A stretch of DNA of 64,000 nt, taken from Prosthecobacter gellanilyticus. GTDB lineage: Bacteria > Verrucomicrobiota > Verrucomicrobiia > Verrucomicrobiales > Verrucomicrobiaceae. Numbering within the stretch: the first letter of the stretch is position 1; each line of letters begins with the position of its first letter. A program made the position numbers and the translations under genes. Under the pieces are notes generated by a model. That model saw nothing but the letters and a program-made list of their open reading frames with translations. It was not told where the DNA came from and did no database searches. Where the stretch lies: the NCBI RefSeq assembly GCF_007992435.1, contig NZ_BKAG01000029.1, positions 1-64,000 on the forward strand. Direction: 5' to 3'. This document shows, piece after piece, positions 24,828 through 28,817 of the stretch.

Positions 24828-26837
24828 TCAAGGGTTCTGAAAAATGTTCACCGCCCCTGAAAGAGTTCGGTATTGAGGAGCTGGCAATGGATTGTTGCTG
24901 GGCACTTCCGTGAGGAAAAAACCAGCACCATAGTTCATGCCTGGAATGATCATGCCACGGAAGGACACCATGCGTTTTGCTCCTCCGAGACCGACACCGG
25001 CGGAGGCTGGGTCAAATTCGAACTTTCCGGTGAAAAAGCCAGTGGGACCATAAATGTCGATCTTCAGCTTGGAGAGATTAGGCTTCGGTATGATCGCAGT
25101 GCTGGCTGCGGTCAGCGTGAGTGGCTGGTTCAGAAAGGGTTTCATGTCCAGATTGGCCTCAAAGCGGGCGTTTAGATTTCCGACGGGTGTGTCAGTGAGC
25201 AAAAGTTGTCCGGGGCGAAGAGCCCGTCTCTTGTAAAAGTAAGCGGTGGAAATTGCTTTGAAGCCCTCCGGGAACACTCGCGATTGAGGATTGGGCAAGC
25301 GGAACCAGACAAAGGCGGAATATCCCGATGGCGTGCCCAAGCCAAGGAGGGTACTCATGCTTGCAGAAGCGTGGTAGAAGCATGGCAGGCCGAAGGCTGG
25401 ACTATACTTATGACCGGGCTTAACAAGCTCGGTTCCTATCGTGAAGCCAGTGCCATCAGGGAGCGTGCCGAAAAAGTTGGCAGAGTGGGTGTTGGCCGAG
25501 ATATGCTTTGTCCCGAAGCCCTGCCCCTTGTCGGGCGAGCCACCGCTTTGAAAGTCGAAAAAGCCCGAATGATCTCCCACATGCAGTTTCTGTTCCGCAC
25601 GTGAGAGGGATTTGACCGGCCAGAGCACGCCGCCAGATGTTGGCACGGCTCCTCCCTCATCGGTGATCGTTGCGCGGATAAATCCGTCCTCATCCTTGCT
25701 CAGGCTGAGCGATGCACCTGTCACGAGGCCGGGAATTTGAACGGGTGCTACGATGCCATCTTCGTCAGGACGGAAAGTGCCGCTGAAGCGGAGGGTACCC
25801 TTTTTGCTGCGCAGCTGTCCGCTGTATCTGCCCGAGGCCAAAACTTGGACCTTCAGGTAGCCACAGGGGAAATCGGACTCCTGATAGATGAAGTCGCCAG
25901 GACCGGTCGCAAACAAGCCAGAGTAGGTTCCTGGCTCCGGATAGGGGCCGCCGGGTTGATCTTCGGCGAACTGAATGACGGTGGTCTTTGAGCTGCTTCC
26001 CAGCGCATTTTGAGCTGTCCATGTGACTTGATATGTCCCCGGCCTGAAATCGTCGACCATCCAGAATCCTTGCTCATCCAGAGACGTGCCTGGAGGCAGG
26101 CCGGTGGCCCGAAATGTGACCGGTGGATCGCTCCTGCCTGCCGCGACGACGACTCCTCCGTAGCCTGTGGAGGGCGTATACATGCCTGAAGGCGCGGACA
26201 CTATTTCTGGAGGGAGGTGGTCCTCAAGGTCGTAGTGGGCGATTTCAATGCTGGCACTCCCCACGGTTAATGTTGCCGTCAGCGGGGGGAACGGATTCAT
26301 GCCAGAGGGCACTAAATAGGCCGAATCGAAAAACCAGGCCGGCGACAGCAGAACGAGTGTCCGATGGAATCTGCCAGCGTATAAGGCGGGGTCATCATAC
26401 ACACTCCATGAAACAGATCCCTTTCCCCAAAAACGTGTCGGCAGTTCCAGTGGGGCTGAAGAGCGCAGTGGGATGACTTTGTTGATCCGCTCATACACGG
26501 TGACCTGGAAGTCGCGCGTGAAGACAACGCCGCTTTGATTGACCACCTTCAGTTGATAAGTGCCGGCATCGGCGGGTCTGGCGCTGGCAACAGAGAGGGA
26601 CGCTGCTTTTTGCGCTGCTAATGCCCGTCCGTTCAAGCTCCATCGGAAGGTGGTGACGTCTGCGCTGATGCTGGGTGACAATGAAAAGCCTAAACCTGCC
26701 TCGACAGCCACAGGAGCGAGATCAGAGATAGGATGGGTGACATCCGGGGCAGCCGCCAGCAAGGTGCGGATGCACGCGATCAGGCAAAGGCTGTGGAGGA
26801 TGACGGCAAGCGCTCTCTGGCGGAAAGAAGATGTCAT
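24828..26837 (-). CDS. secreted Ig-like-domain protein of unknown function
   Basis: This 669-residue protein has an N-terminal signal peptide (about residues 1-29, ending ...RTLLAAAP). Residues about 35-115 form an Ig-like domain with the typical core (FRWSLNGRAL ... ADAGTYQLKVVNQSG). The remainder is rich in Gly, Pro and aromatic residues and includes a segment near 225-295 that resembles a second Ig-like domain (PPVTFRATGLPPGTSLD ... GTYQVTW). No catalytic motif was found. It is likely an extracellular or outer-membrane-associated protein. It is transcribed convergently with nothing and lies alone. Confidence 0.7.
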   Translation of the reverse strand: MTSSFRQRALAVILHSLCLIACIRTLLAAAPDVTHPISDLAPVAVEAGLGFSLSPSISADVTTFRWSLNGRALAAQKAASLSVASARPADAGTYQLKVVNQSGVVFTRDFQVTVYERINKVIPLRSSAPLELPTRFWGKGSVSWSVYDDPALYAGRFHRTLVLLSPAWFFDSAYLVPSGMNPFPPLTATLTVGSASIEIAHYDLEDHLPPEIVSAPSGMYTPSTGYGGVVVAAGRSDPPVTFRATGLPPGTSLDEQGFWMVDDFRPGTYQVTWTAQNALGSSSKTTVIQFAEDQPGGPYPEPGTYSGLFATGPGDFIYQESDFPCGYLKVQVLASGRYSGQLRSKKGTLRFSGTFRPDEDGIVAPVQIPGLVTGASLSLSKDEDGFIRATITDEGGAVPTSGGVLWPVKSLSRAEQKLHVGDHSGFFDFQSGGSPDKGQGFGTKHISANTHSANFFGTLPDGTGFTIGTELVKPGHKYSPAFGLPCFYHASASMSTLLGLGTPSGYSAFVWFRLPNPQSRVFPEGFKAISTAYFYKRRALRPGQLLLTDTPVGNLNARFEANLDMKPFLNQPLTLTAASTAIIPKPNLSKLKIDIYGPTGFFTGKFEFDPASAGVGLGGAKRMVSFRGMIIPGMNYGAGFFLTEVPSNNPLPAPQYRTLSGAVNIFQNP

Positions 26838-26928
26838 GAGGGGAGGAGTGACTGCCCTTGTCCAGGGCGCCCGTCAATGGGTTGCTTGTTCCCGACATGA
26901 GATCGCCGTAGGCAAGTCACACCGGTCC

Positions 26929-26958
26929 TTGACCGCACGGCATTCCTGCCACTATTAT
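26929..26958 (+). promoter_or_regulatory. predicted sigma-70-type promoter of the leuA leader
   Basis: TTGACC (26929-26934) and TATTAT (26953-26958) are separated by 18 bases, close to the sigma-70 consensus. The expected start of transcription is about 26965-26967, which coincides with the A of the leader ORF's ATG (26967). That predicts a leaderless transcript. Only inspection supports this; no start-site data are available. Confidence 0.65.
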
Positions 26959-26966
26959 TGGTCTCC

Positions 26967-27026
26967 ATGACCGCGCCCGCCAAGGCTCTGCTCCTCCTTC
27001 TTTCCCTGCGACTCACGCAAGGGTAG
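26967..27026 (+). CDS. leucine-rich leader peptide upstream of leuA
   Basis: A 19-codon ORF reads M-T-A-P-A-K-A-L-L-L-L-L-S-L-R-L-T-Q-G and stops at TAG. Seven of 19 residues are leucine, five of them consecutive (CTG CTC CTC CTT CTT). It lies 126 bases before leuA on the same strand, directly downstream of the predicted promoter. Ribosome stalling at the leucine run under low charged tRNA-Leu would couple leucine supply to leuA expression, as in classical attenuation. There is no Shine-Dalgarno sequence, consistent with translation from a leaderless mRNA. Confidence 0.7.
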   Translation: MTAPAKALLLLLSLRLTQG

Positions 27027-27053
27027 GCGGCCCGCGTTTCCTCGTCATGCCCT

Positions 27054-27115
27054 TGCTGTCACGTCACAGCATTCCTCCACCAAGGATCAGGAAAAGAATC
27101 TCTTCCTGGAATCCT
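27054..27115 (+). promoter_or_regulatory. candidate attenuator structures between leader and leuA
   Basis: Two stems can form after the leader ORF. One is TGCTGT (27054-27059) with ACAGCA (27066-27071), loop CACGTC. The other is AGGAT-CAGGAA (27083-27093) with TTCCTG-GA-ATCCT (27103-27115), an 11-bp stem with a two-base bulge. The sequence after the second stem is T-rich but lacks a clean T-run, so it may block the leuA ribosome site rather than terminate. The leuA ATG is 38 bases downstream of it. Confidence 0.45.
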
Positions 27116-27152
27116 GTCATCTTGTTAATCCTGTCTAAAGAATCTCCGAATC

Positions 27153-28817
27153 ATGTTAACGTCCCCTGCCACCAAGTACCAGCGCTTTGACCCCGTCAAA
27201 CTGCCGAACCGCCGCTGGCCCTCCCAAACCATCGAGAAAGCACCTATCTGGTGCTCAGTCGATCTGCGCGATGGCAACCAGGCCCTCGCCGTGCCGATGA
27301 ATGTGTCCCAGAAGCTCGACATGTTTGATGCGCTGGTGAAGTGCGGCTTCAAAGAGATCGAAGTCGGTTTCCCCTCCGCCTCAAACACCGAGTTCAGCTT
27401 CAACCGCCGCCTCATCGAGGAAAAGCGCATCCCGGATGACGTCACCATCCAGGTGCTGGTGCAGGCCCGTGAGGACTTGATTGAAAAGACCGTGCAGAGC
27501 CTGATCGGCGCCAAGCAGGTGGTCATCCACATGTACAACTCCACCTCGCCGGCGCAGCGCAAGTATGTGTTCGGCAAGTCCAAGGAGGAAATCATCGCCG
27601 TGGCCAAGAATGGCGCGAAACTGATTAAGGACCGCCTGCATCGCCTGACGGAAAGCGGCACCAAAGTGACCCTGCAATACTCCCCCGAAAGCTTCAGTGC
27701 CACCGAGGTCGAGTTTGCCAAGGAGATCAGCGAGGCCGTGATGGAAGTCTGGCAGCCCACGCCGGAGAACAAGATGATCCTGAACCTGCCGGACACCGTG
27801 GAGGTCTGCATGCCGAACGTCTATGCCGACCAGATTGAGTGGATCTGCACGAACATCAAAAATCGCGAAAGCCTCATCATCAGCCTGCACACGCACAATG
27901 ACCGTGGCACCGGCACCGCTGCCACAGAGCTCGGCTTGCTGGCAGGCGCGGATCGCGTGGAAGGCACACTGTTTGGCAATGGCGAGCGCACGGGTAATCT
28001 GGACATCGTCCAGGTGGCCATGAACCTCTACATGCACGGCACCGATCCGAAGCTGGACTTCAGCAACATGAACGGCCTGATCGAGATGTATGAGCGCACC
28101 ACTGGCATGACCGTGCCACCGCGCCATCCTTACTCCGGCGAGCTGGTCTTCACCGCCTTCAGCGGCAGCCATCAGGATGCCATCAAGAAAGGCCTGAATG
28201 GTTACGATGATCACAAGACCATCTGGGACGTGCCCTATCTCACCATCGATCCGCATGACATCGGCCGCGAGTATCACGAGGTCATCCGCGTGAACAGCCA
28301 GAGCGGCAAGGGCGGCGTCGCCTACCTGCTGGAGAGCGAGTTCGGCATCGAACTGCCGAAGGACATGCAGCGTGAGTTTGGCCCCATCGCCAACGACATT
28401 GTGGACTCTCTGGGTCGTGAAGTCAGCGGTGCGGAGTTGAAGCAGATGTTCTGGAAAGAATACATCGAGCGCGAAACACCCTTCTCCCTGCATCACTTCC
28501 ACGCCGATGGCGTGGACGGCGTCTTCACCTGCCGCTGCAGCATGGTCAAAGACGACCGCGAGATCGGCATCACTGGCGAAGGCAACGGCCCCATCGCCGC
28601 CTTTGTGGATGCCCTCATCAAAGATGCTGGCGCACCGAAGTTCGAGGTCGTCTCCTACCGCGAGCAAAGCCTCAGCAGCGGCACCGGTGCCAGCGCCCTG
28701 GCCTACATCCAGATCAAAACCGGCAACGGTAAGCTGGTCTGGGGAGCCGGTGTCGACACCAACATCGAGCTCGCCTCCATCAAGGCAGTCGTCAGCGCGG
28801 TGAACCGCACAAAGTAG
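27153..28817 (+). CDS. leuA: 2-isopropylmalate synthase (long, LeuA2-type)
   Basis: This 554-residue enzyme condenses acetyl-CoA with 2-oxoisovalerate, the first committed step of leucine synthesis. It has DLRDGNQAL (about 37-45) and HTHNDRG (about 248-254), both of which supply metal and substrate ligands, and the C-terminal leucine-sensing domain (SGTGASALAYIQI). Length and N-terminus (RYQRFDPVKLPNR-like) match the long form. A leader ORF and promoter lie upstream. The last codons AAG TAG fall inside repeat copy 4. The other leu genes are not adjacent. Confidence 0.93.
   Translation: MLTSPATKYQRFDPVKLPNRRWPSQTIEKAPIWCSVDLRDGNQALAVPMNVSQKLDMFDALVKCGFKEIEVGFPSASNTEFSFNRRLIEEKRIPDDVTIQVLVQAREDLIEKTVQSLIGAKQVVIHMYNSTSPAQRKYVFGKSKEEIIAVAKNGAKLIKDRLHRLTESGTKVTLQYSPESFSATEVEFAKEISEAVMEVWQPTPENKMILNLPDTVEVCMPNVYADQIEWICTNIKNRESLIISLHTHNDRGTGTAATELGLLAGADRVEGTLFGNGERTGNLDIVQVAMNLYMHGTDPKLDFSNMNGLIEMYERTTGMTVPPRHPYSGELVFTAFSGSHQDAIKKGLNGYDDHKTIWDVPYLTIDPHDIGREYHEVIRVNSQSGKGGVAYLLESEFGIELPKDMQREFGPIANDIVDSLGREVSGAELKQMFWKEYIERETPFSLHHFHADGVDGVFTCRCSMVKDDREIGITGEGNGPIAAFVDALIKDAGAPKFEVVSYREQSLSSGTGASALAYIQIKTGNGKLVWGAGVDTNIELASIKAVVSAVNRTK

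Follow-up and report, generated by a model that had tools for sequence, protein, structure and literature searches.

The leuA gene of Prosthecobacter gellanilyticus is preceded by a short leucine-rich leader ORF, a near-invariant RNA core that begins at the stop codon of this ORF, and a covarying hairpin with a conserved loop. We propose that these elements probably constitute a leucine-responsive, ribosome-mediated attenuator of leuA that operates on a leaderless transcript; of this proposal, we infer the leaderless start site, the response to leucine and termination as the output.

Layout of the leuA leader

The window, that is, the whole stretch of DNA analyzed, comprises 64,000 nucleotides, and the locus is organized as follows.

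26929..26958, + strand: promoter, with a -35 element TTGACC (26929-26934), an 18-nt spacer and a -10 element TATTAT (26953-26958), called from the sequence match (score 10/12) and from relatives
26967..27026, + strand: leader ORF (leuL-like), 19 codons, MTAPAKALLLLLSLRLTQG, then UAG; without a Shine-Dalgarno sequence and predicted to be leaderless
26988..27002, + strand: five consecutive Leu codons, CTG CTC CTC CTT CTT, the presumed sensing codons
27004-27010 with 27016-27023, + strand: hairpin 1, CCCTGCG / CGC-A-AGGG, overlapping the last ORF codons and predicted in the ensemble
27009..27011, + strand: invariant CGA (36/36 loci) with one Leu codon on each side, the two Leu codons beyond the run of five
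27024..27050, + strand: near-invariant RNA core that starts with the stop codon, TAGGCGGCCCGYGTTTCCTCGTCATGC, recognized by comparison of relatives
27054..27071, + strand: hairpin 2, TGCTGT (CACGTC) ACAGCA, spaced from the stop codon as a terminator would be and supported by covariation
27153..28817, + strand: leuA, a 2-isopropylmalate synthase of the TIGR00970 type, without a Shine-Dalgarno sequence

The ATG at 26967 lies 8 nt past TATTAT, the UAG occupies 27024-27026, and seven of the 19 codons specify Leu, five of them consecutively. None of AGGA, GGAG or GAGG occurs just upstream of the leader ATG in the window. The initial annotation, made from the window sequence, had described this promoter and a Leu-rich ORF of this length before leuA with no Shine-Dalgarno sequence, and all three descriptions hold; the spacing of the -35 element is also kept in most relatives. 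Among the 1655 short ORFs of the window (10-35 codons, six frames), a single one contains LLLL, which must therefore be the leader ORF. In six window genes, CUU and CGA each belong to the less used codons of their amino acid (CTT, 18 of 211 Leu codons; CGA, 7 of 153 Arg codons).

Promoter-like matches over 20 kb were as frequent as in shuffles (5 versus 4.6), so the promoter call rests on its conservation rather than on the match itself. Likewise, the leader alone folds no better than its shuffles (z -0.24). Given ordinary folding energy and chance-level promoter matches, the whole case rests on comparison.

The window leuA product scores above the TIGR00970 cut-off, a type that we take to be the actinobacterial one as well. 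In five other genomes the leuA ortholog gives a two-piece match split near residue 351; each is one longer open frame of 663-728 aa, perhaps carrying an inserted domain. Separately, ATCTTGTTAATCCTGT, at window positions 27119-27134 between hairpin 2 and leuA, is a copy of a dispersed repeat with 49 genome copies at no more than one mismatch, versus none for the reversed pattern; several copies stand in divergent pairs.

Conservation of the leader ORF

From a LeuA search, we obtained upstream DNA for 28 loci of the genus and two of another family of the order, and each had a Leu-rich short ORF at the same place. Across 36 loci, the leader has 18 codons in 33 and 19 codons in three, with whole-codon differences only; it starts with ATG in 30 and GTG in six, and ends with UAG in every case. 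The initial annotation had staked its reading on the Leu run and the ORF recurring in relatives, and they do: Leu occupies 134 of 144 run codons (four run codons in each of 36 loci), and diversity within the run is 0.46 at third positions versus 0.13 at second positions. The L-R-L motif with its CGA codon is invariant (36/36). By sequence comparison, we thus show that the leader ORF is translated, that its leucines are constrained and that the promoter-to-start spacing is kept.

SD-like 4-mers occur within 20 nt upstream of the leader start in only two of the 36 loci. In most ATG loci, the start is preceded at a roughly constant distance by a -35 element reading TTGACC, TTGACT or TGGACA. The -10 element varies between loci from clear to weak. 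Promoter spacing and the rarity of Shine-Dalgarno sequences in relatives argue for a predicted leaderless start, and the window itself has the sequence features of a leaderless mRNA: its promoter ends 8 nt before the ATG, a Shine-Dalgarno sequence is lacking, and the spacing is kept in relatives. The initial annotation had remarked that the leader looks leaderless; the sequence supports this, but as a kind such a leader is not unprecedented, having been reported in Streptomyces (PMC8079986). In the six loci of the GTG-start group, AAAAAGTSCGTGC replaces TTGACC at its position, which suggests a different promoter class.

A conserved core and a covarying hairpin beyond the stop codon

Conservation does not end with the ORF. 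It runs past the stop codon, and the RNA core is more conserved than the ORF itself. Hairpin 2 begins 25-31 nt past the stop codon; its five core pairs are 100% paired in 28 loci, and three of them show double-sided changes among the types CG, UA and GC (UG also occurs). In total, 10 cells changed on both sides, a value reached by none of 500 shuffles, and the loop reads YAYGWC in nearly all loci. Hairpin 2 itself is shown by these compensatory changes in the comparison of loci. Between its end and leuA lie 55-107 nt of poorly conserved sequence.

In hairpin 1, 97% of cells are paired and nearly invariant in the 28 loci, with no covariation among them, and some of its pairs are lost in the few loci that have a CCTTCG form. 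The evidence for hairpin 1 is weaker owing to this near-invariance and these losses. The initial annotation had placed two stems before leuA. Conserved stems are indeed present, namely hairpin 1 inside the end of the ORF and hairpin 2, but the genus as a whole does not keep the further stem of 27088-27093 with 27103-27108. The near-invariant post-stop core together with the covarying hairpin and its conserved loop, absent from that annotation, is the strongest feature of the locus.

Three other candidate pairings were rejected. In the first, the leader AUGAC would pair with GUCAU, either in the core or at leuA; it fails in that GTG-start loci have GCCAT instead of GTCAT and no compensating change. 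The second, which joins the Leu run to a downstream CAGGAAAGAA, is possible in the window and in L019 and, by eye, absent in L007, L008, L014 and L015, and is thus not general. A loop-core pseudoknot (UCGU with the loop) is compatible only with CACGAC loops.

Predicted switching between alternative structures

When a ribosome was modeled on the Leu codons, the minimum-energy fold contained an antiterminator-like pairing, and GGCGGC has a second possible register.

27017..27060, + strand: antiterminator-like pairing of GCAAGGGTA (27017-27025) with TGCCCTTGC (27048-27056)
27026-27030 with 27042-27046, + strand: continuation of this pairing, GGCGG with TCGTC
27026-27031 with 27055-27060, + strand: second register, GGCGGC with the 5' arm of hairpin 2

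The helix between GGCGGC, whose first G is the G of UAG, and the hairpin 2 5' arm GCCGUC can form completely in 27 of 28 loci. Within the genus it shows one-sided changes only, exchanging G-C and G-U; in the sister-genus locus L103, GACGGC faces GCCGUC, and A-U replaces G-U.

We then modeled ribosome states by masking a ribosome footprint at the stop codon or on the Leu run. In the window, the modeled probability of hairpin 2 was 0.98 with the ribosome at the stop codon and 0.01-0.51, varying with the codon and the tail length, when it was placed on the Leu run; the best stalled-state fold pairs GCAAGGGUA with UGCCCUUGC and GGCGG with UCGUC. Over the 36 loci, the stop state exceeded the stall state by more than 0.1 in 5-17 loci and the reverse held in 2-5, according to model setting (for example, 17 versus 4), and in many loci the difference was absent. 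Since so many loci lack it and the loci are related to one another, the modeling supports a state-dependent hairpin 2 and does not prove it.

How leuA might be controlled

Under the attenuation that we favor, transcription would start at or a few nt from the leader AUG, and a ribosome would load on this 5' AUG, read the Leu run with its minority CUU codons and then the invariant minority CGA. With ample Leu-tRNA, the ribosome would reach UAG and cover GGCGGC, hairpin 2 would form, and transcription would be aborted before leuA. With scarce Leu-tRNA, it would stall on the Leu run and block hairpin 1; the segment GCAAGGGUAGGCGG after hairpin 1 could then pair with UCGUC..UGCCCUUGC, removing hairpin 2 and allowing RNA polymerase to reach leuA. 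Counting against such a scheme, leader-codon mutations at S. coelicolor leuA did not fit classical attenuation (as cited in PMC1262725).

As the initial annotation had noted, there is no clear T-run: the 8 bases after hairpin 2 contain 3 T in the window, where a scan found no terminator-like site between the leader ORF and leuA, and 0-6 T across loci. Lacking a conserved U-tract, hairpin 2 is no standard terminator, and an intrinsic terminator is ruled out as a conserved feature. U-tract terminators do occur in the family, as upstream of leuA in L105. From hairpin 2 to leuA, the sequence is rich in C and U and poor in G (C 31%, G 16%), a composition that is by itself weak evidence, and Rho RNA-binding domains are encoded twice in the genome (G000:C16:99305-99523 and G000:C33:62187-62399, in open frames of 516 and 663 aa). 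No SD-like 4-mer precedes leuA in any of the 36 loci. Our best guess is a Rho-assisted, non-canonical or U-poor termination. More specifically, and only tentatively, the leaderless Leu leader may gate a non-intrinsic termination (Rho-assisted or protein-dependent) through the post-stop core and the hexaloop hairpin, using neither a U-tract terminator nor sequestration of a Shine-Dalgarno sequence.

Phylogenetic distribution

An RNA model was built from the 28 same-genus loci and used for a genome search. The element was found in 44 of 48 same-genus genomes and in both genomes of the sister genus; of the four same-genus genomes without a match, two have poor coverage of leuA. A single copy is present in the window's genome, and every element locus examined with its flanks stands before leuA. 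Beyond the genus and its sister genus, the model gave no convincing match in 240 genomes of the order and 289 of the phylum, where the best of the weak matches had an E of about 1e-5. Rfam 15 had no family matching 26500-27500 at E values up to 5, and a phage collection gave no match.

At the peptide level, related leaders extend further. Those of other genera of the family end in ...LRL..LGLAA(H/R), for example MSLTVHSLNLLPGLLRLGLAAH* and MQGIRTELLLRLRLGLAAR*. A pattern of the LRLGLAA form, searched against 84,980 species genomes, identified five leuA leaders, all verrucomicrobial, and five further matches without leuA found just downstream. Matches in sister genera are labeled Verrucomicrobium sp. 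and Verrucomicrobiaceae, in line with the verrucomicrobial host that had been suspected at the outset. In the window's genus, GGG-UAG-GCG-GCC-CGC matches the GLAAR stretch, with the stop in place of a Leu codon; this genus has thus kept the nucleotides but not the peptide.

Some hairpins from other genera (four loci) share CACGA in the loop, and the leaders of three loci from another family of the order retain LRL and have different hairpins. One genus (L105, L106 and L115) is without the leader; there, leuA is preceded by a gene ending in KRFQFSKR and by a canonical U-tract terminator.

Alternative explanations

The initial annotation had suggested that the outcome may be translational. The position of the leader ribosome would then act on the accessibility of the leuA start and not on transcription, as proposed for the actinobacterial LEU element or reported for the mycobacterial polycysteine ORFs. 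The lack of a conserved U-tract would suit this outcome, as would the terminator-less leaderless leu leaders reported in Streptomyces (PMC8079986). However, leuA has no Shine-Dalgarno sequence to sequester in any of 36 loci, its predicted start accessibility is practically equal in the three ribosome states (0.61, 0.60 and 0.61), and hairpin 2 ends far upstream across the poorly conserved interval. The translational outcome is weakened by these results, and we regard it as unlikely. Rather improbable, too, is a protein- or ligand-binding RNA with the core and the hexaloop as putative binding site and the peptide as a secondary matter. This would explain why the core surpasses the ORF in conservation and extends past its stop, why the GLAAR-matching DNA is kept although UAG cuts the peptide, and why the loop of hairpin 2 is conserved; yet constraint on the Leu positions acts at the codon level, genera whose RNA differs still have Leu-rich leaders, and the pairing constraints of alternative structures may themselves account for the core.

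Sensing of the peptide instead of the codon supply, with the C-terminal residues (LRLTxG in this genus, LRL..LGLAA in others) arresting the ribosome as a nascent chain, appears very improbable. It could draw on the invariance of LRL and CGA in 36 loci and on the recurrence of G-[LV]-A-[AST] with varied codons in other genera, but the UAG deprives this genus of the LGLAA end, only LRL is widely shared, and Leu identity across the codon run fits codon sensing better. That the ORF is a functionless chance neighbor of leuA has next to no probability: the leader alone may fold no better than shuffles, but the frame, codons, start, stop and spacing conserved in 36 loci rule this out.

Comparison with known attenuators

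In the literature searched, neither an attenuator nor the mapping of leaderless start sites was described for Verrucomicrobiota. The enterobacterial leu attenuator has the arrangement leuL-leuABCD. The element described here resembles leuL in its Leu-run leader, a hairpin at the end of the ORF, alternative pairings and a 3' hairpin soon after the stop codon (25-31 nt in our case). It differs in that the leader has no Shine-Dalgarno sequence, no conserved U-tract follows the 3' hairpin, and leuBCD do not stand directly behind leuA.

In its proposed mode of action it is close to the actinobacterial LeuL/LEU arrangement, with which it shares a short Leu-run ORF before leuA, a leaderless mRNA (here predicted), the lack of a typical intrinsic terminator and, presumably on the actinobacterial side, a leuA of TIGR00970 type. 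In Streptomyces, a leaderless leucine leader of leuA without a terminator has been reported, and in S. lividans leaderless LeuL transcription was reported from RNA-seq (PMC8079986). For leuA of Actinobacteria, Seliverstov 2005 (PMC1262725) proposed the LEU element, which is defined by a base stem joining the Leu codons to the Shine-Dalgarno sequence of leuA and also has a conserved pseudoknot. As SD-like 4-mers are absent before leuA in 36/36 loci, this base stem has no counterpart here; the end of the peptide and the RNA core also differ, and the phylum is a distant one.

Mycobacterial leaderless polycysteine short ORFs, for which translation attenuation is reported (Canestrari 2020, as cited in PMC13236596), are similar, as described there, in combining a leaderless short ORF and a run of control codons before biosynthetic genes, but they use cysteine and have a different RNA. 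The M. tuberculosis ilvB1 attenuator (PMC13236596) likewise has branched-chain control codons and a choice of hairpin between a ribosome at the stop codon and a stalled one, but possesses a U-tract (Rho-independent) terminator. If our reading is true, leaderless, ribosome-sensing leucine control extends to Verrucomicrobiota, in a compact case, conserved over dozens of species, for asking, as for leuA in Actinobacteria, by what means a leader may control a downstream gene without a Shine-Dalgarno sequence or an intrinsic terminator. Its stop codon, lying inside a stretch that sister genera translate, separates RNA-level from peptide-level conservation.
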